A DNA stretch of 64,000 nt from Betaproteobacteria bacterium. Lineage in GTDB: Bacteria > Pseudomonadota > Gammaproteobacteria > Burkholderiales > SG8-41. This document shows positions 1,649 through 26,228 of this stretch, in pieces. The stretch spans positions 1-64,000 of the forward strand of contig JAQGMI010000009.1 of NCBI GenBank assembly GCA_028292435.1, read 5' to 3'. Numbering within the stretch: position 1 is the stretch's first letter; each line of letters starts with the position of its first letter. The notes beneath the pieces were generated by a model. The model ran no database searches, was not told where the DNA came from, and was given only the letters and a program-made list of their open reading frames with translations. The position numbers were made by a program, and so were the translations under genes.

Positions 1649-1670
1649 CGCAGGACTTTCGCCACGCGAG

Positions 1671-4713: not shown

Positions 4714-4802
4714 CGCAGTGTACGCATAAACAAATCATACTCGATGCGCTTGCGCGCCGCAGGCGGCTGACGGCGCAGACTTTTTCGTGCCCGATGATGC
4801 GG

Positions 4803-6305: not shown

Positions 6306-6379
6306 CCGGATACCATCGGATTAAATCGCGGCGAACTTGCAGTTCATAGGAGCAGTTCAAGCATAAATGAGCACTTTAA

Positions 6380-8251: not shown

Positions 8252-8281
8252 GCCGGTCGTTTGTTCGCATGCGCCCGTGCG

Positions 8282-8959: not shown

Positions 8960-8974
8960 TGAATTAGCGCTTTT

Positions 8975-10792
8975 TCATTGAGTTGCCGTGACGTCTGTGC
9001 GCCTGCTTGATAGGGTCGCGCAATTTCTGGTCATCTCGTCCAGAGCGCGCCTTACATTGCCGATCACAGCACCCCATTCACCGAACGCAGGTTGCCGAAA
9101 TATGCGCAACGAAGGATACCAAGGCATTTCTTCGCCAGCAATTCCGTATCGCCACTCGCAGCCGTACGGCGCCATCACCCACACCGGCCTGCCAAGTGCG
9201 CCTGCAAGATGAACCACCGCTGTATCGACACTGATCACCAGATCGAGCGCCGCGATCACTGCCGCGGTATGTTCATAATCCGTACGCACTTCATTCCAGC
9301 TATGCACCGTTACTCCGCATTGCAGGTGCGCATCGGCGAGTTCGGCAGCGCACGCGGTATATTGCAGGTCGACGAAATGGGTTCCAGCGGTTTGCAAGAT
9401 CGGCAACCAGTCGACGAGCGGCATCGAGCGCATGCGCCGCTGCAGTGAATTCGGCTTGCCACCCTGCCATGAAATACCGATTTTGAGTCCGGCCCCCAAT
9501 TCCGCAAAGCGCGATCTCCAGCTGGCGGCGCGCTGGGCATCGGCAATCAGGTATCCCGCGTGCATCGGAAATTCGGCGCGCGATTTACGAAAAAAGACCG
9601 GCAAACTGCCAATTGCACATTCCAGTTCTACGCCGGCGGCCAGCACGCTCGCGGGAACTTCGCGAGCGTCGTTTGCGGCATATACGGTCGCCTGTGGAAA
9701 CGAGCGCTGGAACAACGTTTCGAGTTTGGGCGAACACTCGACCATGCATCGCGCGCCGGCCGCTGTTGCGTCTGCGATGCACGATGCAAACATGATTTCA
9801 TCGCCGAGCCCCTGCTCGGCATGCACCAGAAGCCTTTTGCCGTTGAGCGGCTCACCGCTCCATTGGGCTAACTCATTGCCGCGGCGCGGCCACTCGGAAT
9901 TCAACTTGCGCAATTCATAGTCAGGCCATGCTGAATAATCGCCTCGCGCGAGCCGTGTCAATGCCAGGTTAAAGCGGGCGTCGGTAAAATCCGGCTTAAG
10001 TTCAATCGCGCGCGTAAGTTCATGCGCTGCTTCGACCAGGTCGTAGCCATCAACGAACAACGCATTGCCCAGATGGAGATGGGTTTCCGCCAAATCCGGC
10101 CGCAGTTCTACCGCCCGACGGTAAGCGTCGATCGACTGCTGAGATCGCCCGAGGTCGCGCAGCGTATAGCCCAGTGCTACGTAAGCATCCACGGATACGG
10201 GTTGCAATTCGATCGCCCGCATACACGATTCGAGTGCCACCTCAAGCTCGCCAAGCTCGCGCAAAGCACCCGCCAGGCCGCTATGAAGTTCAGCCATATC
10301 GGGGCGCAATTCAAGTGCGCGCCGGAACGCAGTCGCCGCCGCTTGAAAATCGCCGTTTTTACGCAGGGCGTAAGCAAGACCAACTGCGGCGGAAGAAAGT
10401 TCGGCGTCGACTTTCACTGCGCGCCGATAATGCGCAACCGCAAAGGCTGAATTTCCCTGCGCGGCAAATGCGTCCGCCAAGTGACAAAGGAGCACCGCAT
10501 CGGAGGGCGCACGGGCGACCGCCCGTTGCAAAAGGTCGATTGCTTCAGCGACTTGACCGCGCGATCTCAGTGCATTGCCCAACAGATGCAACAGGTCCAC
10601 GTTTTCAGGAGCGTCCAGCAACAGCGCCCGATATATTTGCTCTGCGTCGGCAAACTTTCCCGCCCGTTCAAGCGTAAACGCCAGTTGTATGCGGTCGACG
10701 TCCGGCAGCGCGCTACTCGTTGCATTACCCGCTGGCTGTTTGGGCCGGCGACGGCTGCGTGCGAGTAAATTCGTGATCAGCTTGCCTATCAC
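8975..10792 (-). CDS. TPR protein with GT9-like glycosyltransferase domain
   Basis: A 605-aa paralogue with at least six TPR units (DLLHLLGNALRSRGQVAEAI, ELHSGLAGALRELGELEVAL, DAYVALGYTLRDLGRSQQSI) followed by the GT9-like half: LVHAEQGLGDEIMFASC, LKIGISWQGG and DLVISVDTAVVHLAGALG. The start is GTG. The first residues (MIGKLITNLLARSRRR) resemble a segment near the start of the next gene upstream (VILTNLIARLFARPP), which supports a shared N terminus. It ends close to the DxD glycosyltransferase gene and is part of the same minus-strand array. Confidence 0.85.
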   Translation of the reverse strand: MIGKLITNLLARSRRRPKQPAGNATSSALPDVDRIQLAFTLERAGKFADAEQIYRALLLDAPENVDLLHLLGNALRSRGQVAEAIDLLQRAVARAPSDAVLLCHLADAFAAQGNSAFAVAHYRRAVKVDAELSSAAVGLAYALRKNGDFQAAATAFRRALELRPDMAELHSGLAGALRELGELEVALESCMRAIELQPVSVDAYVALGYTLRDLGRSQQSIDAYRRAVELRPDLAETHLHLGNALFVDGYDLVEAAHELTRAIELKPDFTDARFNLALTRLARGDYSAWPDYELRKLNSEWPRRGNELAQWSGEPLNGKRLLVHAEQGLGDEIMFASCIADATAAGARCMVECSPKLETLFQRSFPQATVYAANDAREVPASVLAAGVELECAIGSLPVFFRKSRAEFPMHAGYLIADAQRAASWRSRFAELGAGLKIGISWQGGKPNSLQRRMRSMPLVDWLPILQTAGTHFVDLQYTACAAELADAHLQCGVTVHSWNEVRTDYEHTAAVIAALDLVISVDTAVVHLAGALGRPVWVMAPYGCEWRYGIAGEEMPWYPSLRIFRQPAFGEWGAVIGNVRRALDEMTRNCATLSSRRTDVTATQ

Positions 10793-10823
10793 TGATTTTC
10801 GGTCCGAATCATATTAATGTTTG

Positions 10824-12599
10824 TCAGAGAGCACGTTCACCGGCCCGGACTTGCTCCAACGAACTGGCGACTTGCGCGATCACCGCATCCCAGTGGCCAT
10901 ATTCCGGTTGCCGGAACACGCGTACGGATGGGTACCATGGCATCCCGGCGCTCGATGAGCCGTAGCGCCATTCGGGACTGTAAGGCGCCATGACCCACAC
11001 CGGCTTTCCCAGCGCCCCGCCGAGATGGATTACCGCGGTACAAACACTGATCACCAGATCGACCGCCGTCACCAGTGCCGCCGCTTCCTCGTAATCTGTG
11101 CGAATTTCTTCCCAACTATGTACGCGAATCCCTGTCTTCAGGTGCAGGTCGTCAAGCTGCGGGCCAAAGTCCACGTACTGCAGATCTATGAAGTGAGTGC
11201 TTTTCGCTTGCAGTATCGGTTGCCACCCCGCAAGCGGAATCGAGCGCACCGGGCGGCGTGAGCGGTGGGTGCCGCCTTGCCATGAAATGCCGACCTTAAG
11301 TCCGGAGCCCAATTGGTCAAGTCGTTCACGCCAGCGTGCGACGCGCCCTCCATCGACTTGCAGATAACCTCGGTGCGGCGGGAAATCCGCGCTTGTCCGC
11401 CGAAAATGCAATGGCAGGCTACCGATCGGAATCTGCAGATTAATGCCGCGCTCAAGAATTTCTGCAGGCAGCGATCGATCGCCGGTCATCGAATACACCT
11501 TAGCAGCGGGAAACGACCGCTGAAACAACGTTTCGAGCTTGGGCGAACTCTCGATTATGACATCCGCCCCGGCGGCTATGACGTCTGGAACGCAAGATGA
11601 AAACATGATTTCGTCACCAAGCCCCTGCTCTGCATAGATGAGCAATGTTTTACCGGCCAATGCATCGCCATCCCAGCGCGGAAATGCCGTCGGCCGCTGC
11701 GAGCGGTCGGCATTCAGGCCGCGCAGTTCATAATCGGGCCAACCGCGCGCAAAATCATGCTGCAATAGATACGCAAGCGAACGATGCCAGATAGCGAGCG
11801 GATAGTCCGGTTTCAACGCAATCGCCTCGCCGTATTTTTCGATGGCTTCGTCCAGACGCCCCAAGTCCTGCAACACAATGCCGAAATTGTTCAAGAACTC
11901 CTCGTCGGCGCCGATTTTTAGCGCTAGTTCGTAATAGCGCAGGGCCTCATCCGGACGGTGCGTTTTTTGCAGCACGAGTCCGAGGCATTTCAGCGCCTCG
12001 AAATGAAGCGGCGTGTTTTGCAGTATGCGCTCAAGCAATTCCTGCGCTTCCTCATAACGCTCAAAGTGAAGGTGTGAAAGCGTCAGATTTTTGAGCAAAT
12101 CCGGGATGTCAGGAGCGAGTTCATAAGCACGCTTAAAATGATGAAACGCGCTTTCATTCGAACCCGCGGCTTGCAGGAGCAGCCCGAGATTGCAATGCGC
12201 GACCGAGTTGGCTGGATTCAGGTCCAGTGCACGCTGATAGCTTGCCTGTGCCGCAGCCTTGTCCTCCCGCATCAGAAACACATTGCCGCGCGCCGCATGC
12301 GCTTCAGCGCTGGCAGGGTTCAATGCCAGCGCGCGATCGAGATGGTCAGCGGCATCGACGAGCCTGCCTTGTTCGCCAAGTAAGGCGCCCAGCAAGTAAT
12401 GCGCGTCGGCGCTGCGCGAATCGTTTTTAAGCGCGCTGCGATAGGTCGATTCCGCGTTATTCGGATCGCCTGCCTGTTGATAACGGTAACCTCGCTGCAG
12501 CAGTTCATCGGCAGCTATCGGCGGGCGCGCAAATAATCGCGCAATTAAATTCGTCAGGATCACTCTGTTTTGCCAGTGGCACGAGCTTTGCAGCAGCAT
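10824..12599 (-). CDS. TPR protein with GT9-like glycosyltransferase domain
   Basis: The first gene of the minus-strand array. TPR units include DAHYLLGALLGEQGRLVDAA, EAHAARGNVFLMREDKAAAQ and VAHCNLGLLLQAAGSNESAF. The catalytic half has LLIYAEQGLGDEIMFSSC, LKVGISWQGG and DLVISVCTAVIHLGGALG; a Cys replaces the Asp found in two of the paralogues (ISVDTAV), a point to check for activity. The start is uncertain: the ATG at 12599 has no clear ribosome site, and a GTG at 12563 (VILTNLIARLF) matches the start of the paralogue at 8975-10792. The 140-bp region to the divergent gene probably holds both promoters. Confidence 0.82.
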   Translation of the reverse strand: MLLQSSCHWQNRVILTNLIARLFARPPIAADELLQRGYRYQQAGDPNNAESTYRSALKNDSRSADAHYLLGALLGEQGRLVDAADHLDRALALNPASAEAHAARGNVFLMREDKAAAQASYQRALDLNPANSVAHCNLGLLLQAAGSNESAFHHFKRAYELAPDIPDLLKNLTLSHLHFERYEEAQELLERILQNTPLHFEALKCLGLVLQKTHRPDEALRYYELALKIGADEEFLNNFGIVLQDLGRLDEAIEKYGEAIALKPDYPLAIWHRSLAYLLQHDFARGWPDYELRGLNADRSQRPTAFPRWDGDALAGKTLLIYAEQGLGDEIMFSSCVPDVIAAGADVIIESSPKLETLFQRSFPAAKVYSMTGDRSLPAEILERGINLQIPIGSLPLHFRRTSADFPPHRGYLQVDGGRVARWRERLDQLGSGLKVGISWQGGTHRSRRPVRSIPLAGWQPILQAKSTHFIDLQYVDFGPQLDDLHLKTGIRVHSWEEIRTDYEEAAALVTAVDLVISVCTAVIHLGGALGKPVWVMAPYSPEWRYGSSSAGMPWYPSVRVFRQPEYGHWDAVIAQVASSLEQVRAGERAL

Positions 12600-14382: not shown

Positions 14383-14703
14383 ATGCTCATGGCTTTATTC
14401 GGTTCAGTTTCGAGCAAGGATGTCGACGGCTTTGCCACCGGTCTCGCGCAGGAGCTTGCCAAGCGTTACCCGCCGGCGCTCGACAAAGGCAACGAACGCA
14501 AGATTTCGCAAAAGCGCCTTACGAGCATTCTCGAGGACACTTTTTCGCGCGCCATCGAGTTCAAGCGGGAACACAACCTGGGTGTTTACAAAAAAGCGCG
14601 GCTCGGCAATACATTTCGCTGGGAATTACAGGAAATGGGCTATAGCAAGAACTTCGTCGAAGTTGCGACTGAAGGCCTGATCGTTTACATCACCAGGAAG
14701 TAA
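14383..14703 (+). CDS. conserved-looking hypothetical protein, about 105 aa
   Basis: A small soluble protein that I do not recognise. It starts ATG at 14383, or more likely at the second ATG (14389, MALFGSVSSKD), which is better spaced from the GCGGAG ribosome site. It is rich in charged residues and has a regular helical look, with a middle section KRLTSILEDTFSRAIEFKRE and an ending EVATEGLIVYITRK. There is no signal peptide or membrane segment. It follows the oxygenase gene by 19 bp on the same strand and ends 36 bp before the convergent HD-GYP gene. No function is assigned. Confidence 0.65.
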   Translation: MLMALFGSVSSKDVDGFATGLAQELAKRYPPALDKGNERKISQKRLTSILEDTFSRAIEFKREHNLGVYKKARLGNTFRWELQEMGYSKNFVEVATEGLIVYITRK

Positions 14704-14739: not shown

Positions 14740-16395
14740 TCACGCCGCCGGCGGCGATGCGTAACCCGGCACTTTGCTCAGGTCGATTTCGTCTATCTGA
14801 TGGCGATCCATGCATTGTTCGGCGTAGGTGAGATAGACCTTCTCCCACATGAATACGTCGAACAGATCCGGATCGATATGACCGTTCAGTTTGAATTTCC
14901 CGAGGATAAACAAGGACTCGGACAAGGTCTTCCCCTTCTTATATGGTCGGTCTTTGGCGGTCAGCGCTTCGAAGATATCCGCGATGCCCATGCAGCGGGC
15001 CTGCACTGACATCTGATCGCGCGTGAGGCCGCGAGGGTAGCCTTTGCCATCCATTCGTTCATGATGACCACCCGCGTATTCCGCGACATTTTTTAAATGC
15101 TTCGGCCACGGCAGCGCTTCGAGCATCTGGATCGTCACGTCGATGTGATGATTGATGATCTGGCGTTCCGCGCCGGTCAGGGTGCCCGCGCGTATCGTCA
15201 GGTTTTCCACCTCGTCGGCGGTCAGAAAATCGGTTTCATTGCCTGACACGTCGCGCCAGCGGTACCTGGAAGCTATCTGCTTGACGCGTGCGAGGTCCTC
15301 GTCCTTCATCGCTTCGCCGCCGATATTGCTGTTGCGCAGAAACTCGCGGTCTTCTTCAATGCCGCGCAGCTTCAGCTCAAGGTCGCGGGCTGCGTGCTGT
15401 GCTGCCTGCGAATTGTCCTTTCCTCCCGACTCCAGCGTCGCCTTCAGATACAAAATTTCAGCGTCGCGCTTGATGACCTCGAAGCGCGTGTCGACCAGGT
15501 GGATGCGGTCGTAGATGGTATGCAGTTTCGTCGCCTTATCGACGACGTGGACCGGCGTGGTTACTTTGCCGCAGTCGTGCAGCAGGCCCGCAATTTTCAG
15601 CTCGTAGCGGTCCTTATCATTCATGTTGAAGTTCTTCAGCGGTCCGATCGCGCATCGATTGACGGCTTCTGCCAGCATCATCGTGAGGGTTGGCACGCGC
15701 TCGCAATGACCGGCCGTATACGGTGACTTGTCGTCAATTGCGGCATTGATGAGATTGATGAACGACTCGAACAGGTTTTCCAGATGATTGATTAGTAGCC
15801 GGTTGGTCAGTGCGATCGCAGCCTGGGATGCAAGCGATTCCGCGAGTTGCTGATCTTCCGGAGAAAACGGACATACCTCGCCATTGGCGTCCTTCGCGTT
15901 CAATAACTGCAGTACACCGATGATCTCGTTTTCGTGATTTTTCATCGGCACGGTCAAAAACGACTGCGACCGATAGCCAGTCTTCTTGTCGAAGTTCTTG
16001 GTGCCGGAAAAATCGAACCCTTTCTCGATATAGGCGTCCGCAATATTGACCGACGTATCGTGGTGAAACGCGTAAGCGACGACCATTGTATTGACGGCCT
16101 GGCCATCCGTCTGAAAGAGATTAATCGGCGGAAACGGGATCGCTACACCGGTAGTTCCGCCCATCGCAATCTTGAGCGTGTCATTGCGCATGATCTCGAA
16201 CTTGAGTGTCCGCTCATCGGTTACGCGATACAGCGTTCCGCCATCGGCATTCGTGATTTTTTTTGCCGCAAGCAAAATCGCCTCGAGCAGGCGGTTAATG
16301 TCAGTTTGCTTGGAAAGCGCGACGCCAACCTGATTCAGCTGTTCGAGACGCTCGAACAGGTTCACAGAATCCGGCGGCCGGTGCATCTCGTTCAT
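14740..16395 (-). CDS. GAF domain HD-GYP phosphodiesterase (c-di-GMP)
   Basis: A predicted cytoplasmic cyclic-di-GMP phosphodiesterase controlled by a GAF sensor. The GAF domain spans ~residues 28-200 and includes KTGYRSQSFLTVPM, IGVLQLLNAKD and FSPEDQQ, close to the NKFDE-type pattern of cyclic-nucleotide-binding GAFs. The HD pair is His273-Asp274 (LLHDCGK), and the GYP signature HHERMDGKGYP is at 444-454. The spacing between them is about 170 residues, roughly 100 more than in a minimal HD-GYP domain, so there is an insertion at ~305-400. It starts 3 bp after the upstream ATPase gene stops, so the two are co-transcribed. It is last in the signalling operon. Confidence 0.88.
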   Translation of the reverse strand: MNEMHRPPDSVNLFERLEQLNQVGVALSKQTDINRLLEAILLAAKKITNADGGTLYRVTDERTLKFEIMRNDTLKIAMGGTTGVAIPFPPINLFQTDGQAVNTMVVAYAFHHDTSVNIADAYIEKGFDFSGTKNFDKKTGYRSQSFLTVPMKNHENEIIGVLQLLNAKDANGEVCPFSPEDQQLAESLASQAAIALTNRLLINHLENLFESFINLINAAIDDKSPYTAGHCERVPTLTMMLAEAVNRCAIGPLKNFNMNDKDRYELKIAGLLHDCGKVTTPVHVVDKATKLHTIYDRIHLVDTRFEVIKRDAEILYLKATLESGGKDNSQAAQHAARDLELKLRGIEEDREFLRNSNIGGEAMKDEDLARVKQIASRYRWRDVSGNETDFLTADEVENLTIRAGTLTGAERQIINHHIDVTIQMLEALPWPKHLKNVAEYAGGHHERMDGKGYPRGLTRDQMSVQARCMGIADIFEALTAKDRPYKKGKTLSESLFILGKFKLNGHIDPDLFDVFMWEKVYLTYAEQCMDRHQIDEIDLSKVPGYASPPAA

Positions 16396-16398
16396 CGC

Positions 16399-18792
16399 TT
16401 ACTTGATACAAACCGCGCGCACGCAAGCCATATCGGTTACTCCGGCCAGGACTTTTTCAATCCCGTCCTGCTTCAGAGTGCGCATGCCTTCCTCAAGCGC
16501 CGTCGCCAGCATTTCAGCCACGCGCGCATGCTCTTGAATATTTTTCTTAACCGCGTCCGTGCCGATCAACAGTTCGTGCAGGCCGACGCGCCCCTTATAG
16601 CCGCTGCCGCCGCAGGTATCACAGCCGGTGGGCGAATTGACCATGATTTCGCCCTTTTCATTGCCGTAGTCCTTAATCCAGCCTTGCATGACTTTTTCGC
16701 GCTCCGCCTTCAAATCCTTCTTCCACGACGCAGTATTTAACATTTCAGTCTGATATTCTTCCATCAGCAAATTCAATTCTTCCTGAGTTGCAGCATGGGG
16801 CTTTTTGCATTTGCCGCACAAGCGCTTAGCCAATCGCTGCGCCAGAATTCCGAGAAGTGCATCTGCGAAGTTGAACGGGTCCATGCCCATATCCAGCAAG
16901 CGAATAATGGATTCCGGCGCAGAATTCGTGTGCAACGTGGCGAACACCAAGTGGCCCGTCAGCGATGCCTCAATACCCGTGCCGACCGTTTCCTTATCAC
17001 GCATCTCGCCGACCATAATGATGTCAGGATCGGCCCGCAGAAACGCTTTCATCGCGATGGCGAACGTGAGGCCGGCCTTCGGGTTCATCTGTACCTGGCG
17101 CAGGCCACGCTGCGTAATCTCGACCGGGTCTTCGGCAGTCCAGATTTTCGTTTCAGGCGTGTTCAGATAACCAAGGACCGAGTGCAGCGTCGTCGTCTTG
17201 CCCGAACCTGTCGGACCGCACACGAAAAAGAGGCCATACGGTTTTTCTATCGCCGCTTTACACTGCTGCAGGTTGTAATTGGAAAGGCCCAGCTTATCGA
17301 GCGGGATGGGCTCGCCGGCGGCCAAAATACGCATCACGATATCTTCGACGCCGCCTTGGGAAGGAATGGTGGCGACACGCAGTTCGATGTCGAGCGGCCC
17401 AAATTTCTTGAACTTGATCTTACCGTCCTGCGGTTTGCGCCGCTCGGAGATATCAAGATCGCACATGATCTTCAGGCGCGCCGCGATCGCATTACGATAA
17501 GCCGCGGGCACTGAGATGTAATTATTGAGCGTTCCATCCTTGCGAAACCGGACCTCGGTTTTGCCCTTGCCGGGATAGGGCTCAATGTGTATGTCGGAAG
17601 CACCCTGCTTATACGCGTCGACAATGATCTTATTGACGAGTTTGACAACTTCGTTGTCGGATGCAGCCGACGCCACGTCCTCATTGTTGTCTTCGAGCGA
17701 TTCATCATCTTCAAGGCCTGACAGCAAATCGCCGATATCGGTGCCGTCGTCAACGTTGCCGACGCCTGCCGATCCACCATTTGCGCCGAAGAACAAGTCG
17801 AGTGTAGCGATAAATTCGCGACCGCAGCAGACGCGGTAAACGATTTTGCTCTTCGGGTATACGTTACTGACAACTCGCGAACCCCGGATTTTTTCCGGAT
17901 CCGTCGTCAGAATCATGATGCCGTCTTTCGATTCGTCGATTGGTATCCACAAGCTGCTCTCGACGAATTCTCGGCTCATGTTTTTCATGAGATCCATCGG
18001 CTTGACCCGGTCGGCTTTGTGCGCCTCGTAGGGCACTTCGAAATAAGCGGCCAGCGCTTCGCCGATGGCATTTAATTTGACCTGAAACTCATCGATCAAA
18101 ACGGTTTCAATGTCGAGGTTTTTGCGCCGCGCAGAGCGCGTCGCGAGTTCGAGTTCTTCCGCCGAGATCACCGCATTCGAGACCAGGTGATCATATTTGC
18201 CCTTGACGCCGGCCACGGGCTTTTGCCGCTGGCGCGCGGCAATTGCGAGGGTTTCGGCAACGTGGGTAGCGCCTTCTTCCATGACCGGCGGAAACGGTTG
18301 CCCGCTCTTCGAATTAATGAGCTGAAGCACGCCGATCAATTCCTTACTTTGCGCCTCGATCACCGGCACGACCAGCATCTGCTTGGTGCGATATCCCGTT
18401 TTTACGTCGACTTGCTTCAGAAAATTAAGCTGCGGACTGTAAGTTTTCAACTCCTTGTCGTCATAGACGTCGCGGATATTGATCATTTTCTTATGCACCG
18501 CAACAAAACCCGCAATGCTCTGCTCAGCGATTGGCAGCTTCAGGTCTTTGAACGAGTTCAGGCCTGTTTTGACCTTGGAAACGATTGAGGTCTTGTCTTC
18601 GCTGACGAGATAAATCGTGAGCCGGTCGGCATTGAACAGGCCGCAGATGTCCTGACTCAGCTCCAGCATGATTTCGTCGAGATTGCTGGTCGCGTGAATG
18701 CGGTTGGTGACGGCTTGCAGCGCCTTGGAGAAGTTTAATTTCTCGGCAAGATTGTCCGGCGCAACCGGCTTCGTTTCGAGTACGCTACTCAT
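16399..18792 (-). CDS. GAF-fused type II secretion/type IV pilus assembly ATPase
   Basis: A 797-aa AAA-type secretion ATPase of the GspE/PilB family carrying an N-terminal GAF sensor (~residues 28-190; KTGYRTKQMLVVPV, IGVLQLINSK). A GspE N-terminal-like domain follows (~200-335), then an acidic linker (~345-380). In the motor domain are Walker A GPTGSGKTT (526-534), the Asp-box region WTAEDPVE, Walker B DIIMVGEMRD (~590-599), the His box LTGHLVFATLHTN and a zinc tetracysteine (CGKC near 659, CDTCGG near the C terminus). It would power pilus extension or secretion. No pilin, inner-membrane platform or secretin gene is visible in the window, so it is an orphan motor within a signalling operon. 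Confidence 0.88.
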   Translation of the reverse strand: MSSVLETKPVAPDNLAEKLNFSKALQAVTNRIHATSNLDEIMLELSQDICGLFNADRLTIYLVSEDKTSIVSKVKTGLNSFKDLKLPIAEQSIAGFVAVHKKMINIRDVYDDKELKTYSPQLNFLKQVDVKTGYRTKQMLVVPVIEAQSKELIGVLQLINSKSGQPFPPVMEEGATHVAETLAIAARQRQKPVAGVKGKYDHLVSNAVISAEELELATRSARRKNLDIETVLIDEFQVKLNAIGEALAAYFEVPYEAHKADRVKPMDLMKNMSREFVESSLWIPIDESKDGIMILTTDPEKIRGSRVVSNVYPKSKIVYRVCCGREFIATLDLFFGANGGSAGVGNVDDGTDIGDLLSGLEDDESLEDNNEDVASAASDNEVVKLVNKIIVDAYKQGASDIHIEPYPGKGKTEVRFRKDGTLNNYISVPAAYRNAIAARLKIMCDLDISERRKPQDGKIKFKKFGPLDIELRVATIPSQGGVEDIVMRILAAGEPIPLDKLGLSNYNLQQCKAAIEKPYGLFFVCGPTGSGKTTTLHSVLGYLNTPETKIWTAEDPVEITQRGLRQVQMNPKAGLTFAIAMKAFLRADPDIIMVGEMRDKETVGTGIEASLTGHLVFATLHTNSAPESIIRLLDMGMDPFNFADALLGILAQRLAKRLCGKCKKPHAATQEELNLLMEEYQTEMLNTASWKKDLKAEREKVMQGWIKDYGNEKGEIMVNSPTGCDTCGGSGYKGRVGLHELLIGTDAVKKNIQEHARVAEMLATALEEGMRTLKQDGIEKVLAGVTDMACVRAVCIK

Positions 18793-18857
18793 GGCGGCTT
18801 GATCCTTGGTCTAGCACTCACACCAATGCAGAGCCATACGGCAGACCGGCCCCGCGC

Positions 18858-19622
18858 TCATAATTCGAATATCTGATTGTTTTCGAGCATGTGCGGGCGG
18901 AAGTCGCCAGCGCATTCCATGATTTCCTGCATCGTTACTTCAGACTCGCCCGGCTTCAAGTGCGTGATGTAAATTTCCGCCTTGCGCTTAAGTTTTCGCA
19001 ATTCTTCCGCGAGCATGCTCGGGCACAAGTGCTTAGATGCAACCGCCAGTTCGCGCTCGCGGTTGCAAAATGCGGTCTCGATAATCAAGTAGCGAAGATT
19101 TTCGATCTTATTCACTTCATTCCATAACGGGTCATGCTCAGTGGTGTCGCCCGTGAACACGAGGCTCGCGCGGCCGGAATCAAGCCGATAGCCAACTGCC
19201 GGCACCACATGATTCGCTGGCAGCGGTGTTAGTTTTCGACCCTTCACTTCGACGGTTTTACCGAGCGCGACAGCTTCATAGCGCAGGAACGGTTTCTTTG
19301 CGTCGGGAATCTGGGTGAAGTCCGGCCACAGCTTCCAGTTAAAGAGGTGCTGGCGCAAAATTTCAAGCGTCGGCTCGATTGCATGCACGGTAATCGGCGT
19401 GTCTCGCATCCAGCCAACCGAATCGACCATGAACGGGATCGAGGTAACGTGGTCGAGGTGCGAATGCGTCAGAAACACGTGGTCGATGCGCGACAACTCT
19501 TCGATCGTGAGATCGCCTACACCGGTCCCGGCATCGATCAGCACATCGTCGTCGAGCAGCATCGAGGTCGTGCGCAAGTTACCGCCGATGCCGCCGCTGC
19601 AACCAAGTATCCGAAGTTTCAT
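18858..19622 (-). CDS. metallo-beta-lactamase-fold hydrolase, likely cyclic-nucleotide phosphodiesterase
   Basis: A 254-aa MBL-fold enzyme with the two-metal motif HSHLDH at 53-58, preceded by LIDAGTGVGDLT. Later ligand motifs are NHVVPAVGYRL, LVFTGDTTEHD and IYITHLKPGE. Overall order and length fit the class II cAMP phosphodiesterase-like branch of the fold. Neighbours support this: it begins 9 bp after the adenylate cyclase gene, and the next gene encodes a GAF protein. Hydrolysis of cAMP is therefore likely but inferred; other MBL hydrolase roles are possible. Confidence 0.75.
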   Translation of the reverse strand: MKLRILGCSGGIGGNLRTTSMLLDDDVLIDAGTGVGDLTIEELSRIDHVFLTHSHLDHVTSIPFMVDSVGWMRDTPITVHAIEPTLEILRQHLFNWKLWPDFTQIPDAKKPFLRYEAVALGKTVEVKGRKLTPLPANHVVPAVGYRLDSGRASLVFTGDTTEHDPLWNEVNKIENLRYLIIETAFCNRERELAVASKHLCPSMLAEELRKLKRKAEIYITHLKPGESEVTMQEIMECAGDFRPHMLENNQIFEL

Positions 19623-19631
19623 CGATGCTAT

Positions 19632-21869
19632 TTATTTCGTCTTGAACGTAAACGCACCATCCCAGCCTTTGCCGGGCGGATTTGCGCGCAAGTAGGAAAT
19701 CCTTTCCACGAATGTCTGACTATAGAGCAGATTGCCCGGCATCTGTTTTTGGAGATTAAACAACTGAAGTTCTGCCTGGTCCCAGTCCTGCGCGCGATAG
19801 AGGCGTAAAAACTGAGTGTACAGCTTGATTTCCTCGAGTCGCGCCTTGTCGACCTTCCCCTGCATGCCAAACGGCTCGAATATGGCCACCGCTTCGTCTT
19901 TGCCTTTCACACGGACGCGGTCAAGCTCCCGAAATACGACCTCCGGGACGGCGTCCCTGGTCCCTTCGCCGACTATGACATCAGCGCCGTATTCTTTGGT
20001 GATACCCTCGAGACGAGATGCCAGATTGACCGCATCGCCCATGACAGTGTATGCGGTGCGCAGTTTCGATCCCATGTTGCCCACGCTCATGCGGCCAGTG
20101 TTCAGACCGACGCCGATGCGGATTTCCGGCCAGCCGCGGGCCCGGAATTCAGGCTTGAGCTTATTTAGGATTTCGTGCATTTCAAGACCGGCCATAATGC
20201 CGTTACGCGCATGGGCCGGATCAGCGAGCGGCGCGCCCCAGAATGCCATGATGCAGTCGCCCATGAATTTGTCGACCGTGCCGCGGTGCTTGTAGATTAC
20301 CTCCGTCAGCGGAGTTAGGAATTCGTTCATCAGCTGTGATAGCTGTTTTGGGTCGAGTCCCTCGGAGATGGTGGTAAATCCGCGCACGTCGGTGAAAAGC
20401 ACCGTCATTTCGCGGGATTCGCCTTCCATCGAAAAACTTTCCGGATTGCGCGCCATTTCATCAACGAGCTCGGGGGGCACGTATTGGCCGAAAAGCCCGG
20501 TAATCTGCCGTTTGCCGCGCGTCTCGACGAAGTAGCCGTATGTCATATTGAGCGCAAACAAGAGTGATATCAGCATCAATCCCGATGCTAACGGCAGCAC
20601 CAGATTGCCGACGTGGAATACCAGCACATTGATTGCCAACACGCCCAGCATTACCACGATCGTCACCAGCAGCGATCGCAGCGGATTAAGCAGCGGCAAC
20701 AAAAACGCCATCGCGAGACCCGCAATCACCAGCGACACGAATTCGGCGCCAATCACGTAAGGCGGCTTTTGTTTAATGTTGCGGTCGAGCATGCCGGAAA
20801 TCATATTGGCATGCACTTCGACGCCGGGATACACCTCCTCGACGGGGGTTGCTCGCAAGTCGAGCAATCCAGGGGCAGATGTGCCGACGAGCACTATCTT
20901 CCCCTCTAACGATTTGGGATCGGCCCGCTCGTTCAAAACATCGACTGCTGATATATAGTTAAAACTGCCATGCTTGCCGCGATAGGGAATCAGCGCCGTG
21001 ACCAGTTCGTCAACAGGAATGCGCAACGGGCCCAACTCAAGCCATTCCAATCCAGAATAATTCTTCGACCAGATCTTGTCCGCCGGATAGCCGGGGATGA
21101 TGTTTTGCCCGCCGATAATCATACGAACCATCGCGAGCGACAGCGGCTCATAGTAACCGCCGTCAAATTCAGCCAGCATGGGCACTCGCCTGATAATGCC
21201 GTCGGGATCGGGATCAAGACTGAAGTGGCCTGCGCTGGCGGCGCTCTTCTGCAGCTCATTCAGGTTTGAGGTGTATCCAGGAAAAACCGCGAAATTAATC
21301 GTTTTTCCCGCGAAAGTCCCTGCCGGCAACACAGCAGGGGGCAATGCGCCCTTTTTCGCGTTTTCTCCATCAAAGCGCGTAAATGCATAGCCGAGGACGA
21401 CGGGGCGGTTACGCATATGAGCAGCAAAAATTTCATCGTATTCGAGCTGCGGCTGCAATTGCTTTAACGTCGCCTGAAATCCGGTCACATCCTTTAATTC
21501 TTTTTGCGCGAGCTGTTGCAACACCTTCAGGCCGGAGCTCTCGTCGCGTTCTGCAAACACAATATCGAAGCCGACGATAGCGATTTTGTAATGGTCAAAG
21601 AGCTTGTCCAGCAAAACCGCGAGACGGTCGCGCGGCCATGGCCACCGGCCCTCGCCGCCTTTTTCCTTCTCGGCGAGACTTTTTTCATCGATGTCGAGAA
21701 TGACGATGCGCGGATCGATCGTGCGGGGCATCGTGAGCGCCAACCGCGTGTCGTAGACGACGGCCTCAAGACGCTCGACCAGCGGCAAGTGATAATATTT
21801 TGCCGCGTTGCCGAGAAAAACCAGCACGAGCAGCAAGCCGAGACCGATACGAACGAAATGTTTCTTCAA
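19632..21869 (-). CDS. CHASE2 domain class III adenylate cyclase
   Basis: A membrane-bound cyclase making cAMP from ATP in response to an extracytoplasmic signal. After an N-terminal membrane anchor (~7-22) comes a periplasmic CHASE2 sensor (~35-365, ILDIDEKSL, RWPWPRDRLA). Three membrane segments follow (~370-445), then the class III catalytic domain (~485-670). Metal-binding aspartates are Asp494 (LFTDVRGF) and Asp538 (VDKFMGDC). Lys534 and Asp612 (TVMGDAVN) are the ATP-selecting pair, and Asn615/Arg619 the transition-state residues, so an adenylate rather than guanylate cyclase is expected. The start is a TTG behind a strong AGGAGG site. A 197-bp gap separates it from the FHA gene. Confidence 0.9.
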   Translation of the reverse strand: MKKHFVRIGLGLLLVLVFLGNAAKYYHLPLVERLEAVVYDTRLALTMPRTIDPRIVILDIDEKSLAEKEKGGEGRWPWPRDRLAVLLDKLFDHYKIAIVGFDIVFAERDESSGLKVLQQLAQKELKDVTGFQATLKQLQPQLEYDEIFAAHMRNRPVVLGYAFTRFDGENAKKGALPPAVLPAGTFAGKTINFAVFPGYTSNLNELQKSAASAGHFSLDPDPDGIIRRVPMLAEFDGGYYEPLSLAMVRMIIGGQNIIPGYPADKIWSKNYSGLEWLELGPLRIPVDELVTALIPYRGKHGSFNYISAVDVLNERADPKSLEGKIVLVGTSAPGLLDLRATPVEEVYPGVEVHANMISGMLDRNIKQKPPYVIGAEFVSLVIAGLAMAFLLPLLNPLRSLLVTIVVMLGVLAINVLVFHVGNLVLPLASGLMLISLLFALNMTYGYFVETRGKRQITGLFGQYVPPELVDEMARNPESFSMEGESREMTVLFTDVRGFTTISEGLDPKQLSQLMNEFLTPLTEVIYKHRGTVDKFMGDCIMAFWGAPLADPAHARNGIMAGLEMHEILNKLKPEFRARGWPEIRIGVGLNTGRMSVGNMGSKLRTAYTVMGDAVNLASRLEGITKEYGADVIVGEGTRDAVPEVVFRELDRVRVKGKDEAVAIFEPFGMQGKVDKARLEEIKLYTQFLRLYRAQDWDQAELQLFNLQKQMPGNLLYSQTFVERISYLRANPPGKGWDGAFTFKTK

Positions 21870-21964
21870 ACCGCCTCCTGTGCCGCCATTCGCCGCGAGC
21901 CGCGAGCAACGGCGCCGTTTCCGATCGAAAACAAGCTATTCAAGCAAGGCCTAAGCTGCCATTA

Positions 21965-21994
21965 CGCTGGCGCGGTCGCCGAGACGCGCCAGCG
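21965..21994. repeat. GC-rich inverted repeat between cyclase and FHA genes
   Basis: A perfect 10-bp stem (CGCTGGCGCG / CGCGCCAGCG) with a 10-nt loop. It lacks a T-run on the minus strand, so it is not a classical terminator. It lies in the only sizeable gap of the operon and might act as an mRNA processing or stability element. Confidence 0.5.
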
Positions 21995-22066
21995 ACCCGC
22001 TCATCATTTTCGAGAATCTGATTGGAAACACATTGCGGCACGCGGGCGGGGATTCCACGCCAATCG

Positions 22067-22810
22067 CTAGCCGTTCTTGAAAAAGAACTCCATTTTCACC
22101 CCGGCCAACTCAATCACATCATGATCGTTCAGTTGATGCGCCTGTGCGTCGAGGGCTTTGCCGTTGATCACCGGGAAGTTCGCGCCTTCGACGTGCGTGA
22201 TGAAATAACCGTGGGGACGCCGCGTTATTACTGCGACCTGCACGCCAGGCTTGCCAAGAGTCGTCAGGTTTTTCGTGAGTTCAAGTTCTTTGCCGGCCGA
22301 TGGACCCGTCAGAATCTGCACCGCTGCCAGTTTTTCAGGTGGTTTGGGCGCTGCCGTAACGGTTGCCTGTGGCCGGCTTTGTTGAGTCGTGGTTTGCGTC
22401 GCAGTTGCGCTGACCTGGGTGTCGCCGAATCCGCCGCCTCCAGGACCGGGCGACATTTTGCCGAGCGGCGCACGCAACACCATGGTTTTTTCGAAATCGG
22501 CAACTGAGGCAGCGCCGGTTGGCGCTTCGCTAACGAATTTCAGCTTGTATTTGCCGATTTCGATGACGTCATTGGTCTGCAAAATATGTTTTTTGACGGG
22601 ATTGCCGTTTACCAGCGTACCGTTGGTGCTCCCCAGATCCTCGAGAAACGAATCATTAAGAATCGTCACGATCAGAGCGTGCTCGCCGCTGACGGCAAGA
22701 TTATCGATCTGAATATCGTTATGCGCTTTTCGGCCGATAGTGAAGCGTTCCTTATCAAGAGGAACCTCCCGAATCACCGCGTTATCCAAACTCATGATCA
22801 ACTTCGCCAT
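22067..22810 (-). CDS. FHA domain protein (phosphothreonine reader)
   Basis: A 247-aa cytoplasmic protein. FHA domain 1 (~residues 20-95) is canonical: RFTIGRKAHNDI, SGEH and LGSTNGTLVNG, with the Arg, Ser and Asn that contact phosphothreonine. A Gln/Thr/Pro-rich linker (~125-165) joins it to a second, degenerate FHA-like domain (~175-247) with VINGKALDAQAHQLNDHDVIEL. It lies between genes for a PP2C phosphatase and a cyclase and downstream of a Ser/Thr kinase, so it is the likely reader of that kinase's marks. The start codon is ATG, 21 bp after the phosphatase gene. Confidence 0.88.
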   Translation of the reverse strand: MAKLIMSLDNAVIREVPLDKERFTIGRKAHNDIQIDNLAVSGEHALIVTILNDSFLEDLGSTNGTLVNGNPVKKHILQTNDVIEIGKYKLKFVSEAPTGAASVADFEKTMVLRAPLGKMSPGPGGGGFGDTQVSATATQTTTQQSRPQATVTAAPKPPEKLAAVQILTGPSAGKELELTKNLTTLGKPGVQVAVITRRPHGYFITHVEGANFPVINGKALDAQAHQLNDHDVIELAGVKMEFFFKNG

Positions 22811-22831
22811 GGCAATATCCCTGTAACCTTA

Positions 22832-23659
22832 TTATCTAAACCAAGCCTTCAATTTGGCAAACCACCCGGTGGGTACTGCAAAATCACCGAGTATCCGCAC
22901 CAGTATCACTGAAATGTTATCGCGTCCGCCGCTATCGTTTGCCAGTTGCACAAGCTGCTTCGCGGCCAGCGGCAAATTCGACTGCAGCGTACCCAGGGTC
23001 GAATGAATGTCTTCATCCTGGACCATGTCGCTCAGACCATCGGAGCACAGCAAGTAAATATCGCCCGTTTCGACAGTATAAGTATGAATCTCGGTCTCGA
23101 CTTCAGGGTCGATACCGACTGCCCGGGTGACCAGGTTCTTGTTTTGCGAATAGCGCGCTTGTTCTTTGGTGATCATGCCGCTGTCGATCTGCTCCTGCAG
23201 CAGCGAATGATCGCGCGTCACCTGTTCAAAAACGTCCTTACGCAGCCGATAGAGGCGCGAGTCTCCGATGTGACCGACCGTCATCCGGTTATCGAAAAAA
23301 AGCGCCACGACCAGCGTCGTGCCCATGCCCGCATATTGCGGCTGGCTTTTTGCGGTCTGGAATATCGCCGCATTTGCCTTGGCGGAGTTCTCACGCACGA
23401 ATTTTTCGGCGAGGGTTTCACCCGTACTGTCGAGGGCGTGCGGGTCGCTGTTTTCAAGCGCCTGCTTCATTTCGGTCGTCAGCATGGCGACCGCGATCCC
23501 GCTCGCGACTTCGCCGGCGTTGTAGCCGCCCATGCCGTCGGCCAGCACGGCCAGCCCGATTTCAGCATCGGTGCCCATGCTGTCCTCGTTATGCGAGCGC
23601 ACCATGCCCGGATCGGTGGCGGTTACGACTTCGAGTGCTGTGCCGAGATTAGCGATCAT
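22832..23659 (-). CDS. PP2C family protein serine/threonine phosphatase
   Basis: A 275-aa PP2C (Stp/PrpC-like) phosphatase that would reverse the partner kinase. The metal motifs are all present: RSHNEDS near residue 21, VLADGMGGYNAGEVASG near 38, VGHIGDSRLYRL, LLCSDGLSDMV and GGRDNISVILV. It is soluble, without a membrane segment. It starts 4 bp after the kinase gene stops, the usual kinase-phosphatase pairing. Activity should need Mn or Mg. Confidence 0.92.
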   Translation of the reverse strand: MIANLGTALEVVTATDPGMVRSHNEDSMGTDAEIGLAVLADGMGGYNAGEVASGIAVAMLTTEMKQALENSDPHALDSTGETLAEKFVRENSAKANAAIFQTAKSQPQYAGMGTTLVVALFFDNRMTVGHIGDSRLYRLRKDVFEQVTRDHSLLQEQIDSGMITKEQARYSQNKNLVTRAVGIDPEVETEIHTYTVETGDIYLLCSDGLSDMVQDEDIHSTLGTLQSNLPLAAKQLVQLANDSGGRDNISVILVRILGDFAVPTGWFAKLKAWFR

Positions 23660-23663
23660 GTCT

Positions 23664-26228
23664 CTAAATTCCGATATCGACTATGTCAGACTTACCGGCC
23701 AGGCCTGCCCCGCCTTCGGCCATGCACGCCCTGATTGCCTGCGAGAGTTCATCGCCGGTCTGGAAACGATCTTCTGGCTGTTTCGAAAGCGCCTTGTTGA
23801 CGATCTCGACCAGGCATTGCGGCAAAGTCGGCGCGTGGGTGAGGATGTCGACATGCGGTTCATTGGCGATTTTGAACATGAGTTGCGCCATCGAATCGCC
23901 CTGGAACGGGAGGCGCCCGCAGCTCATCTGGTAGAGCGTGACGCCGAGCGAGAACAAGTCGGAACTGCCTTGGATTTTTTTACCCGACAGTTGCTCGGGC
24001 GACATGTAGCTCGGCGTGCCCAGCACCATGCCGGTTTTGGTCTTAGACGAATCGGTGATGCGCGCGATACCGAAGTCAGTCACTTTCACCGTGTCGCTTT
24101 CCATTTCATACATGATGTTGGCCGGCTTGATGTCACGGTGCACGACGCTATTGGTATGCGCGTATGACAGCGCTTCGGCTACGCGCGCGACGATGCTCAT
24201 GACTTTCGGCAGCGGCAGTAAGTTGTCGGGCTTGATGTAAGGCGCCAAGTCCTTCCCTTTCAGGAACTCCATCGCGATATAGGCAAGATCGTGCTCTTCG
24301 CCGGCATCAAATATCGTCACGATATTCGGATGGTTCAAACGCCCGGCGGTTTCAGCTTCGCGGAAGAACCGGTCTTTAACGTCCTGCAATTCATCGGCGT
24401 CGAACTCCTGCGACAGCGCCATCGTTTTAATTGCGACGACGCGGCCGATCTTGGGATCCTTACCGAGGTACACGACGCCCATCGCGCCTTTGCCGAGCTC
24501 TTTCTCGACCTGATAGCGGCCGAGCATCGGCTTCTCAACGCCGCCGCCCGGCAGAATGACGGTGCCGCCGGGATGGCCACCGGTGCCGCCGAGAATGACA
24601 GTCTCGGACATCGCTTTAGCTCGGCCGACGCGTTCAGCGATATCCTTGAACTTCGGATTTTTCTCGGCAATATATTTGAACGCGTTTTCCGCCTTGTTGA
24701 ATTGGCGCTTGCGCTCGTAGTCGAGGGCGAGGTTATAAATGAGGTCGAGCACCGAATCGTCCGGGGGCAATTTCCGGAAATAATCAAATGCAGTGTCAAG
24801 CTGTCCCTGCCCTTGATAACCCAGGCCCAGCATGCGGTGGCTCTGGGCGAGGTCAACGTCCGAGCGCGCCTTGCTGCGTTCCGTAATGAGGAAGCGCTTC
24901 GTGGTCAACGCGAGGTGGCCGACGACAAGCAATGTCACCGCCGCCATCAGCTGAATCCATACCAATTGCGTGCCCATCAGGACGAAATGCGCGACCAAGA
25001 GCGTGACGAATAGCGACGCGGTGCAGATAGCGGCCATGCCCGCCTTAAGCCGCGGCAGCAAGCCAATCAGATAGGCAGCGATGAGGACAAATATGAGCTT
25101 CTCGACCCATGCACCCCAAGAAGGCACAACAAAAAAATCTTCCTTCATGATGCTCGATACCGAATGCGCCAGCGTTTCCACCGGCGCCATCCGCGGCGAA
25201 ATTGGCGTCACTTGCGAAATGCCGAGGCCGGTGGCTGTCGCGCCAATCAAAACGATTTTGTCCTGATACTTCGAAGCGGGAATCTTGCCGGTATAGACGT
25301 CAAAAAATGAGTCGATGGGAAACGCCCGCTTGTCGCCGGAATCGCCGTAAAAGAACGTATACATGCGCAATTCAGGATCGGTGCGTACGCGTAGCTTGCC
25401 GATGCGCACATCCTCGCCTGGCTTGGCCTGGATGTCCGCAACTTGCAGATTCAGGTATTTCGCAACCAGCATCAAAGACAGCGACGGAAAAAAGCGGTCG
25501 TAGTAGCGCACGATCAACGGCTCGGCACGCGTCGCACCGTCAACGTCCTGCTGGGCATTCAGGTGACCGATGCCTACCGCAGTCGTCGCGAGTTCGGGTA
25601 TCGGGTAAGCCGGATTGATCCCGGGAGGCGGCAGGACCTCGGCGTTCTTGTCCTTCATCAGCATGCCGTTGGCGAGTATGCTTTCCGGCAGCGGCTTATC
25701 GGGATTGCCTTGCGGCTCAAACGGAAACTGCTGGAACACCATTGGCAACAGCACATTGCCGGATTTTTTAAAGCTGTCGGCCAGCCGCTGATCCGTGTTT
25801 AGCGCGCCGGACGCTTCCGCGAGCAGAGCCTCCAGCTTCTCCGCATCCGGGTCATGCGAACCTTTGAATTTTGAAGCGGCGTATGCCTCGTTCAGCTTGT
25901 TGATATAGGCGAGGCCGGCGTCAACCTGCGGCTCAAAAAAGAAAGCGGTGTATCCGATCGTCTTTGCTTTGGCGTTCGCCAAAATGTCTGTCATCTTCGC
26001 GTGTACATCACGCGGCCACGGCCAACGGCCGATGTTGGCGATGCTTTGATCGTCGATGGCAATGACGGCGATCCGGTCCGAAGGCGTGCGCGACGCCGAC
26101 CGTACGCCGAGATCGTACGCCTTCCGCTCAAGACTCTGGATGAGATCGCCGCCCGCCGCGATCGCGAGTACGAGTGTAACGACGAGCCCCAAAAACCAAT
26201 CCGACTTCCAGAAAGTCAAATTTTTCAT
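23664..26228 (-). CDS. CHASE2 domain serine/threonine protein kinase
   Basis: An 854-aa membrane sensor kinase and the first gene of the signalling operon. An N-terminal anchor (~11-30) leads into a periplasmic CHASE2 sensor (~35-365; VIAIDDQSIANIGRWPWPRD). Then come membrane segments (~375-440) and a TPR-like helical segment (~462-540, LGLGYQGQGQLDTAFDYF). A Gly-rich linker leads to a complete Hanks-type kinase (570-~835): glycine loop GKGAMG (579-584), Lys601 (VAIK), catalytic HRDIKPAN (697-704) and DFG (718-720). The kinase lies at the C terminus after the sensor, the reverse of the PknB order. The CHASE2 domain is shared with the cyclase two genes further on, suggesting related input signals. 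Confidence 0.92.
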   Translation of the reverse strand: MKNLTFWKSDWFLGLVVTLVLAIAAGGDLIQSLERKAYDLGVRSASRTPSDRIAVIAIDDQSIANIGRWPWPRDVHAKMTDILANAKAKTIGYTAFFFEPQVDAGLAYINKLNEAYAASKFKGSHDPDAEKLEALLAEASGALNTDQRLADSFKKSGNVLLPMVFQQFPFEPQGNPDKPLPESILANGMLMKDKNAEVLPPPGINPAYPIPELATTAVGIGHLNAQQDVDGATRAEPLIVRYYDRFFPSLSLMLVAKYLNLQVADIQAKPGEDVRIGKLRVRTDPELRMYTFFYGDSGDKRAFPIDSFFDVYTGKIPASKYQDKIVLIGATATGLGISQVTPISPRMAPVETLAHSVSSIMKEDFFVVPSWGAWVEKLIFVLIAAYLIGLLPRLKAGMAAICTASLFVTLLVAHFVLMGTQLVWIQLMAAVTLLVVGHLALTTKRFLITERSKARSDVDLAQSHRMLGLGYQGQGQLDTAFDYFRKLPPDDSVLDLIYNLALDYERKRQFNKAENAFKYIAEKNPKFKDIAERVGRAKAMSETVILGGTGGHPGGTVILPGGGVEKPMLGRYQVEKELGKGAMGVVYLGKDPKIGRVVAIKTMALSQEFDADELQDVKDRFFREAETAGRLNHPNIVTIFDAGEEHDLAYIAMEFLKGKDLAPYIKPDNLLPLPKVMSIVARVAEALSYAHTNSVVHRDIKPANIMYEMESDTVKVTDFGIARITDSSKTKTGMVLGTPSYMSPEQLSGKKIQGSSDLFSLGVTLYQMSCGRLPFQGDSMAQLMFKIANEPHVDILTHAPTLPQCLVEIVNKALSKQPEDRFQTGDELSQAIRACMAEGGAGLAGKSDIVDIGI

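Follow-up and report, generated by a model that had tools for sequence, protein, structure and literature searches.

The stretch of DNA analyzed here, referred to as the window, comprises the first 64,000 nucleotides of contig JAQGMI010000009.1 from Betaproteobacteria bacterium assembly GCA_028292435.1 (Burkholderiales; SG8-41), and our subject is a cluster of seven minus-strand genes at positions 14,740 to 26,228. An earlier note, made from the sequence alone, had described these genes as an operon that joins Ser/Thr phosphorylation, cyclic AMP (cAMP), cyclic di-GMP (c-di-GMP) and a secretion motor. All seven genes were recovered intact, in the positions and order that it gave, by open reading frame and Pfam analysis, and the cluster does bring together a cyclase, a motor, an HD-GYP enzyme and proteins of Ser/Thr phosphorylation, with pilin genes as its link to surface pili. 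The motor itself is to be read differently: on comparative grounds it is most likely a type IVa pilus (T4aP) extension ATPase standing in for canonical PilB.

Read from the upstream end, the cluster opens with a CHASE2 Ser/Thr protein kinase of 854 amino acids (23664..26228), in which Pfam places CHASE2 at residues 18–384 and the kinase domain at residues 572–824; a TPR_2 match at residues 497–526 scored 23.8 bits, under the Pfam cut-off of 27. This gene is followed by one for a PP2C Ser/Thr phosphatase of the Stp1/IreP family (22832..23659, 275 amino acids), which passes NCBIfam model NF033484 at 254.3 bits against a cut-off of 230, and one for a 247-residue FHA protein with a single intact FHA domain (22067..22810, Pfam 79.8 bits). 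Next come a CHASE2 class III cyclase (19632..21869, 745 amino acids), read from a TTG start behind AGGAGG, and a metallohydrolase of the metallo-beta-lactamase (MBL) fold (18858..19622, 254 amino acids). The GAF-PilB-like ATPase, which is the motor (16399..18792, 797 amino acids), has a GAF domain at Pfam residues 37–185 (18238..18684), an MshEN-like domain detected by Pfam, and a T2SSE motor domain at residues 377–789 (16426..17664, Pfam 375.3 bits). The cluster closes with a GAF-HD-GYP c-di-GMP phosphodiesterase (14740..16395, 551 amino acids). Both GAF domains are of the type that binds cyclic nucleotide monophosphates (cNMP), an assignment that for the ATPase rests on a structure match and on contact residues, and all named domains in the seven proteins lie over the Pfam cut-offs.

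Motif conservation was evaluated in an alignment for each gene, with 49 to 107 rows that include the window and the copy in its own genome. K601, D699 and D718 of the kinase were kept in 49 of 49 rows, D41, D207 and D247 of the phosphatase in 61 of 61, and R27, S41 and N63 of the FHA protein in 62 of 62; the C-terminal half of the FHA protein is conserved as well, with a TLGKPG..VEG stretch. The HxHxDH motif of the MBL protein was present in 91/91 rows, and Walker A and B, the Asp box, the His box and the tetracysteine of the ATPase, which are the catalytic motifs of the PilB/GspE group, were intact over 107. D494, K534, D538, T608, N615 and R619 of the cyclase were kept in all 65 rows. These correspond to the two metal Asp residues, the Lys and Thr for adenine, and the Asn and Arg, and the protein has the residues expected of a class III adenylate cyclase. 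The HD-GYP protein has the HD residues together with HHExxDGxGYP, near-invariant over 95 rows (P454 at 0.99, the remaining motif letters at 1.00), and is predicted to belong to that family. A catalytically dead cyclase or HD-GYP protein, the outcome that would have spoken against the earlier description, is not borne out since the motifs are conserved throughout these alignments.

The intergenic gaps from the kinase to the HD-GYP gene are 4, 21, 197, 9, 65 and 3 bp. The range of 3–65 bp that the earlier note gave for most of the gaps holds for five of them but not for the one between the FHA and cyclase genes (21870..22066), which is 197 bp long in the window, has a median of 100 bp in relatives (n=49), and contains a GC-rich inverted repeat seen by eye. 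A second transcription start or an attenuator is possible there. In a scan for promoter-like and terminator-like sites no excess over shuffled sequence was found (6 against a mean of 7.4 and 17 against 17.0, respectively).

Conservation of the gene order, proposed as a check in the earlier note, was evaluated on the best-scoring 80 of at least 592 stretches that matched the ATPase in a genome scan; cultured bacteria among the matches include Azospira sp. I13, Chitinimonas viridis and Sulfurisoma sediminicola. All seven genes were observed in the same order and on the same strand at 40 of the 56 loci with enough flank, while the remaining 16 are without one to six of the seven. Two Nitrosomonas loci retain only the MBL and ATPase genes, one Methylotenera and one Methylophilaceae locus retain the ATPase gene alone, and in two Noviherbaspirillum loci parts of the cluster lie on the opposite strand. 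A set of 15 stretches taken from additional genomes gave the full seven genes in four (L260, L266, L269 and L272) and two to six in the other 11, some of which are truncated at a stretch or contig end; at one of the loci (L267) the FHA gene directly adjoins the ATPase gene. An extra gene is found between the MBL and ATPase genes in 23 of the 80 loci, where the window has its 65-bp gap; the two scanned copies of this gene each code for a cNMP-binding domain and a rhodanese domain. The order of the seven genes is not chance. On the strand opposite to the cluster, positions 14383–14703 of the window encode a 106-residue protein with no Pfam match, by eye of the same family as a small gene in 6 of the 80 loci, which in the loci listed lies just beyond the HD-GYP gene.

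The pilin genes that follow the cluster were not mentioned in the earlier note, which was silent also on the replacement of PilB, on the cNMP type of both GAF domains and on the cNMP-binding/rhodanese gene. Pilin distances were taken from loci with 3 kb or more of sequence past the cluster, again 56 in number but not the same set as that used for gene order; if a locus had no called HD-GYP gene, the ATPase gene end served as the starting point. At 37 of these loci a type IV pilin gene is found within 3 kb downstream of the cluster in the same orientation, and at 29 of them the distance is within 650 bp. A pilin motif search within the window found none; the minus-strand genes at 50..12599 encode TPR proteins and FkbM methyltransferases/glycosyltransferases and stand between the cluster and the pilins expected beyond base 1. 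In a genome of the same genus (G006), two pilins are found roughly 17 kb after the cluster. Contig C117 of the window's own genome opens with a truncated TPR gene, after which come two pilin genes, and from that point it is collinear with G006; the one pilin scanned is over the cut-off of PF00114 and of T4aP type. C117 is likely the continuation beyond base 1 of the window, as judged from this collinearity and not from a joined assembly.

Some further features of the pilin neighbourhood were observed. TPR genes akin to those at 50–12599 sit between cluster and pilins in relatives, and it is a guess that the run of TPR, FkbM and glycosyltransferase genes serves pilin glycosylation. A second Ser/Thr kinase gene is found a few kb beyond the pilins at L156:10491-11792 and likewise in L006 and G040. 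Beside the cluster in six loci (L062, L066, L068, L074, L080 and L083) the pilin is split: the gene for a pilin of about 60 residues precedes one for a short protein of about 107–140 residues that is probably secreted. Short pilins are encoded by pilAB of Azoarcus, and split pilins occur as PilA-N/PilA-C in Geobacter. The six loci resemble the Geobacter arrangement and also Azoarcus pilAB (PMC3262810).

In a comparison of the ATPase GAF domain with all solved structures, the best match was the cAMP-binding tandem GAF of the Anabaena cyclase CyaB2 (1ykd) at E 8.1e-31, the next match being at 3.5e-11. The other 20 matches comprise 18 named cyclic-nucleotide phosphodiesterases, one HD-GYP protein and one chemotaxis protein. 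The GAF domain of the HD-GYP protein matched PDE5A (2.3e-19) and CyaB2 (1.7e-15). In CyaB2 GAFb the contacts to cAMP are made by R291, T293, I308, D356 and N359 (PMC4411481). With contact residues aligned by eye, R57, T59 and D129 of the ATPase are identical to their counterparts, V74 stands for I308 and T132 for N359; R57, T59, D129 and T132 occur in 107 of 107 aligned rows. The HD-GYP GAF retains the contact Thr and Asp and is without the Arg. From this pattern we infer that the GAF domain of the ATPase would bind a cyclic nucleotide, probably cAMP. The c-di-GMP receptor motif of MshEN domains is RLG...Q (PMC10333796), and c-di-GMP binding by the MshEN-like domain of the motor was considered and rejected, as NLD takes the place of RLG in the window when aligned by eye; position 225 of the ATPase is N or G in 91 of 107 rows.

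Identification of the motor was approached by means of curated models, a tree and genome context. No ATPase in the window's own genome (G000) is over the PilB cut-off, and pilC and pilD are present; pilC lies on contig C48 and the ATPase on contig C126, so that the ATPase gene is not found directly before pilC. The model for TfpB (NF053534) gave 388.2 bits, short of its cut-off of 850. In a tree of 68 motor domains the 20 PilB rows form one clade with support of 100/99, and the GAF-ATPases, including the hybrid motors described below, form another at 100/100. The tree program warned of weak inner forks, and the tree was used only for the separation of these two clades and for the position of four hybrids. 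A full-length structure model of the ATPase had a mean predicted local distance difference test (pLDDT) score of 60.5, the motor domain for the most part staying below 50, and its fold matches were kept out of the evidence on mechanism on account of this low confidence. Two other features of the own genome touch on the pilus machinery. An orphan GspE/PilB-like ATPase of about 620 residues is encoded at G000:C64:29152-30852 with no platform or pilin genes adjoining, and ATPases of this size are listed in many relatives. Two copies of pilC, 82.7% identical in DNA, lie at contig ends (L183 and L184, on contigs C5 and C48); because the copies diverge, the assembly is taken to contain DNA of a related strain, which fits its 8% contamination.

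The distribution of the two motors was evaluated in an order-wide sample of 300 genomes, where a genome was counted as PilB-positive at E up to 1e-185 and as PilC-positive at E up to 1e-110. This resulted in 172 PilB-positive genomes, of which 165 also pass the curated cut-off. The ATPase was matched in 129 genomes, and eight of these (G072, G092, G149, G201, G247, G273, G293 and G306) were treated as paralogues and removed before counting, their matches being weaker and falling mostly on the motor half. The counts assume that the same genomes were drawn for the ATPase, PilB and PilC searches, and the handles agree. Of the 121 genomes left with a GAF-ATPase, 120 have PilC, the exception being G159, which is 78% complete. 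The 224 PilC genomes divide into 62 with GAF-ATPase only, 99 with canonical PilB only, 58 with both and 5 with neither (52, 92, 39 and 3 at a completeness of at least 95%). Canonical PilB is consequently missing from 67 of the 224, and 62 of these 67 carry the GAF-ATPase; put otherwise, pilB is absent in 62/120 PilC genomes with a GAF-ATPase and in 5/104 without. Broken assembly is not the general cause of the GAF-only state, as six of the GAF-only genomes are single contigs. In a second set of 60 relatives, PilC was found in 57. Canonical PilB exceeds the cut-off in 11 of the 60, all of which lie outside the window's own family, which has 36 members in the set when its own genome is counted. 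The GAF-ATPase was not found in seven of these 36 (G005, G008, G010, G011, G012, G015 and G018); four of the seven have the FHA gene, and for these incomplete assembly is likely.

Traces of this exchange are found at the pilB locus. Canonical loci read pilB-pilC in 10 of 10 cases, with a gene for a CNNM transporter before pilB in six. Among 29 pilC loci of relatives, which include genomes where no GAF-ATPase was found, 27 read CNNM-pilC without pilB, one has another neighbourhood, and one (G037) holds a relic consisting of only the last quarter of pilB. In 20 of the 62 GAF-only genomes, chosen from 10 families, the arrangement was CNNM-pilC in 16, a relic in one, another neighbourhood in three, all of family f16 (which groups with Nitrosomonas in the motor-domain tree), and an intact pilB in none; the relic of G099 shows an internal gap and a frame change. 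In four others of the 62, from two families (G164, G071, G115 and G156), a hybrid motor gene lies between CNNM and pilC. Residues 1–160 of the hybrids are of canonical PilB type and the remainder is of GAF-ATPase type, the motor domain being 60 to 96% identical to GAF-ATPases versus 30 to 61% to canonical PilB, as best match per segment. The four are nested inside the GAF-ATPase clade (95/85), and their genomes also carry a full GAF-ATPase elsewhere. A motor domain of the GAF-ATPase type thus stands at the pilB locus beside pilC, in these four hybrids only. Replacement of PilB by the GAF-ATPase is well supported by these genome comparisons.

The MBL enzyme and the cyclases found outside the cluster bear on how a nucleotide signal might be made and ended. 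The MBL protein scored 39.6 bits with the curated class II phosphodiesterase model NF041851 and did not reach its cut-off of 400; Pfam PDEase_II matched residues 44–105 only, at 48.5 bits. A structure model with a pLDDT of 93.6 gave fold matches to YhfI (Z 26.1), yeast PDE1 (25.8) and E. coli RNase Z (ZipD, 25.3), a near-tie that singles out no substrate and leaves families outside these match lists as candidates too. The enzyme is a probable phosphodiesterase, and the cyclic-nucleotide hydrolase named in the earlier note is one candidate activity. Where the cluster includes no cyclase gene, a class III cyclase match was found elsewhere in 12 of 12 genomes, as it was in the window's own genome; the test is a weak one, since 5 of 14 control genomes match as well and such enzymes are widespread. 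In G057 and G088 a CHASE2 cyclase elsewhere in the genome is 47% and 44% identical to that of the window. Separately, a further cyclase was observed at L308 (G000:C162), an open frame of about 800 residues adjoining or fused to a GAF domain that resembles those of the ATPase and the HD-GYP protein.

Taken as a whole, the cluster is probably a T4aP control module built round a cyclic-nucleotide-gated, PilB-like motor of its own clade. Sequence comparison directly supports its conservation, its pilus link, the replacement of PilB and the type of its GAF domains; as for the ligand, the direction of its effect and the role of phosphorylation, we infer the following. The ATPase would work with PilC to add pilin subunits. 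A periplasmic cue would act on the CHASE2 cyclase, leading to a cyclic nucleotide, most likely cAMP, that would bind the GAF domain of the motor and change its activity on PilC, gating extension directly. The GAF domain of the HD-GYP protein would read the same nucleotide, such that c-di-GMP is lowered in step, and the MBL enzyme would end the signal by removing cAMP, provided that cAMP is its substrate. The CHASE2 kinase and the PP2C phosphatase would set the phosphorylation of a partner docked by the FHA protein, the motor being one candidate. In its full form, with PilB replaced several times across many betaproteobacterial families by a cAMP-GAF motor gated through direct allostery, the same nucleotide driving removal of c-di-GMP and the arm of kinase, phosphatase and FHA protein setting the gain, the proposal is tentative and we place it somewhat short of an even chance.

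Several observations weigh against this module. The ATPase scores 486.8 bits with the canonical PilB model TIGR02538, short of its cut-off of 675.65, and lies outside the PilB clade in a tree that carries a warning of long branches between groups. The 80 loci lean to close relatives, being the best-scoring of a longer list, and the window's own pilin link crosses a contig end, since the contig stops at base 1 within the run of TPR genes. The association between absence of pilB and presence of the GAF-ATPase (Fisher p = 7e-16) ignores phylogeny. Four of the 62 genomes counted as GAF-only still hold a PilB-type gene, namely the hybrid at the pilB locus, and in the 58 genomes that keep both motors the GAF-ATPase may have a distinct role. 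Five of the 224 PilC genomes have neither motor (G082, G191, G193, G242 and G271), and three of the 60 relatives bring the number of PilC genomes lacking both motors to eight over the two samples, which overlap; these three, G010, G012 and G015, are also without the FHA gene, and as G012 and G015 hold an ATPase of orphan size, the orphan stays a candidate for the extension motor. In three genomes of family f16 the ATPase keeps only the MBL gene alongside, and among f16 genomes a class III cyclase is matched in 7 of 7 with motifs intact by pattern in 3 of 7. The contact residues of the GAF domain do not discriminate between cAMP and cyclic GMP (cGMP), and the MBL fold fits YhfI, yeast PDE1 and RNase Z about equally.

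Other explanations of the cluster were weighed on the same evidence. The ATPase may replace PilB while its GAF domain senses another ligand, such as cGMP or a small molecule, or only dimerizes; the output of the cyclase would then run via the cNMP-binding/rhodanese protein or via regulators of the CRP type, making the cluster a regulon neighbourhood and not a direct gate. GAF domains do bind many ligands, and the cGMP-binding GAFs of PDE2/5/6 are among the matches. The three f16 genomes have the ATPase and no cyclase in the cluster, two Nitrosomonas loci without a cluster cyclase (L079 and L084) retain the GAF contact residues, and the separate gene at 23 of 80 loci encodes cNMP binding in the two copies scanned. 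We nonetheless regard this as unlikely, if worth keeping in view, given that the best match by far is the cAMP-binding CyaB2 and that two cluster proteins with this GAF type lie beside an adenylate-type cyclase. The switch envisaged in the earlier note, with three chemistries on one transcript, a periplasmic cue shared by both CHASE2 sensors and c-di-GMP acting on the motor, draws support from enzymes that are all intact and conserved together. Yet the MshEN-like domain is without the RLG motif, a 197-bp gap lies within the proposed transcript, on which the promoter and terminator scan gives no signal either way, and the CHASE2 regions of kinase and cyclase are 24% identical; 33 CHASE2 columns are near-invariant in both sets with the same residue in 27, which may be generic to CHASE2. 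Such a switch is doubtful as a whole.

The two remaining alternatives concern the filament itself. The ATPase could, like TfpB, be a second extension motor with an accessory or conditional role, with the orphan of about 620 residues driving extension in PilB-less genomes. The orphan is present in G000 and ATPases of similar size in many relatives, including G012 and G015, which have PilC and neither motor, and PilB and GAF-ATPase occur together in more than a quarter of the PilC genomes. This remains improbable in view of the skewed absence of pilB between genomes with and without the GAF-ATPase, of orphan-sized ATPases in genomes where pilB is kept (G041, G042 and G044, for example, with no systematic count), and of the GAF-type rather than orphan-type motor domain found at the pilB locus in four genomes. 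A separate filament, be it a type II secretion pseudopilus or an adhesion pilus, with co-occurrence of PilC as a lineage effect, is very improbable. The cluster holds no PilC, PilD or PilQ gene, and MSHA-like, T2SS-like and other filament clusters are found in the own genome, but those on C15, C52, C60, C116 and C144 have their own ATPase beside their own platform gene; moreover, the scanned pilin of C117 is of T4aP type and nearly all PilC genomes without pilB have the GAF-ATPase. A T4aP module with a replacement motor is the reading that we prefer.

In comparison with known systems, the ATPase shares with canonical PilB (TIGR02538) the T2SSE domain, Walker A and B, the Asp and His boxes, the tetracysteine and an association with PilC and pilins; unlike canonical PilB it has an extra GAF domain and is encoded with signalling genes and not with pilC. 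TfpB of Acinetobacter baylyi is a second, phylogenetically distinct T4aP extension motor, and one species has only TfpB (PMC8213720). The GAF-ATPase is like it in being a probable second kind of T4aP extension motor beside PilB, but its GAF domain is not covered by the TfpB model, whose 584 positions begin to match the ATPase at residue 235. ATPases of the MshEN type, MshE among them, are gated by c-di-GMP (Wang 2016 as cited in PMC10333796) and likewise couple a regulatory domain at the N-terminus to a motor of the PilB/GspE kind. The ATPase, in which Pfam finds an MshEN-like domain, differs in being without the RLG motif and in having a cNMP-type GAF as its added module. In the PilB-PilZ-FimX system of Xanthomonas c-di-GMP acts through FimX, and in the Chp-CyaB-Vfr system of Pseudomonas cAMP acts on transcription through Vfr (PMC11656802, PMC10333796). 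These routes also place T4P extension under second-messenger control, but in the ATPase the sensor is part of the motor. Most cAMP-contact residues of the homologous CyaB2 GAF are common to the ATPase (PMC4411481), although CyaB2 has a tandem GAF with a cyclase output and the ATPase a single GAF with a pilus-motor output. The signalling cluster is not mentioned alongside pilAB in the part of PMC3262810 covered, nor in that of an Azoarcus transposon sequencing (Tn-Seq) study which names pilB2C and pilAB; the word GAF is absent from the main text, as far as available, of PMC11656802, a review of PilB control. In the open-access literature searched by topic, as far as its texts were covered, no description of a GAF-PilB motor or of the seven-gene cluster was found. 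A second extension motor is already known in TfpB, but the ATPase falls short of the TfpB model, and what we take to be new in this PilB-like motor is its regulatory head and its operon.

PilB is regarded as the type IVa extension motor, yet the canonical form is missing in 67 of 224 PilC genomes, which suggests that annotation by PilB models alone can overlook the extension ATPase in such genomes. If it is true that the motor reads cAMP itself, this would constitute a route from messenger to pilus unlike that through Vfr, which is transcriptional, and that through c-di-GMP and FimX, and the effects of cAMP, c-di-GMP and Ser/Thr phosphorylation would be testable on one machine encoded with one cluster. 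It appears that in many bacteria of soil and water the usual pilus motor has given way to one with a cyclic-AMP-type sensor, and the kinase, phosphatase, cyclase and c-di-GMP enzymes encoded in the same gene block probably control it.

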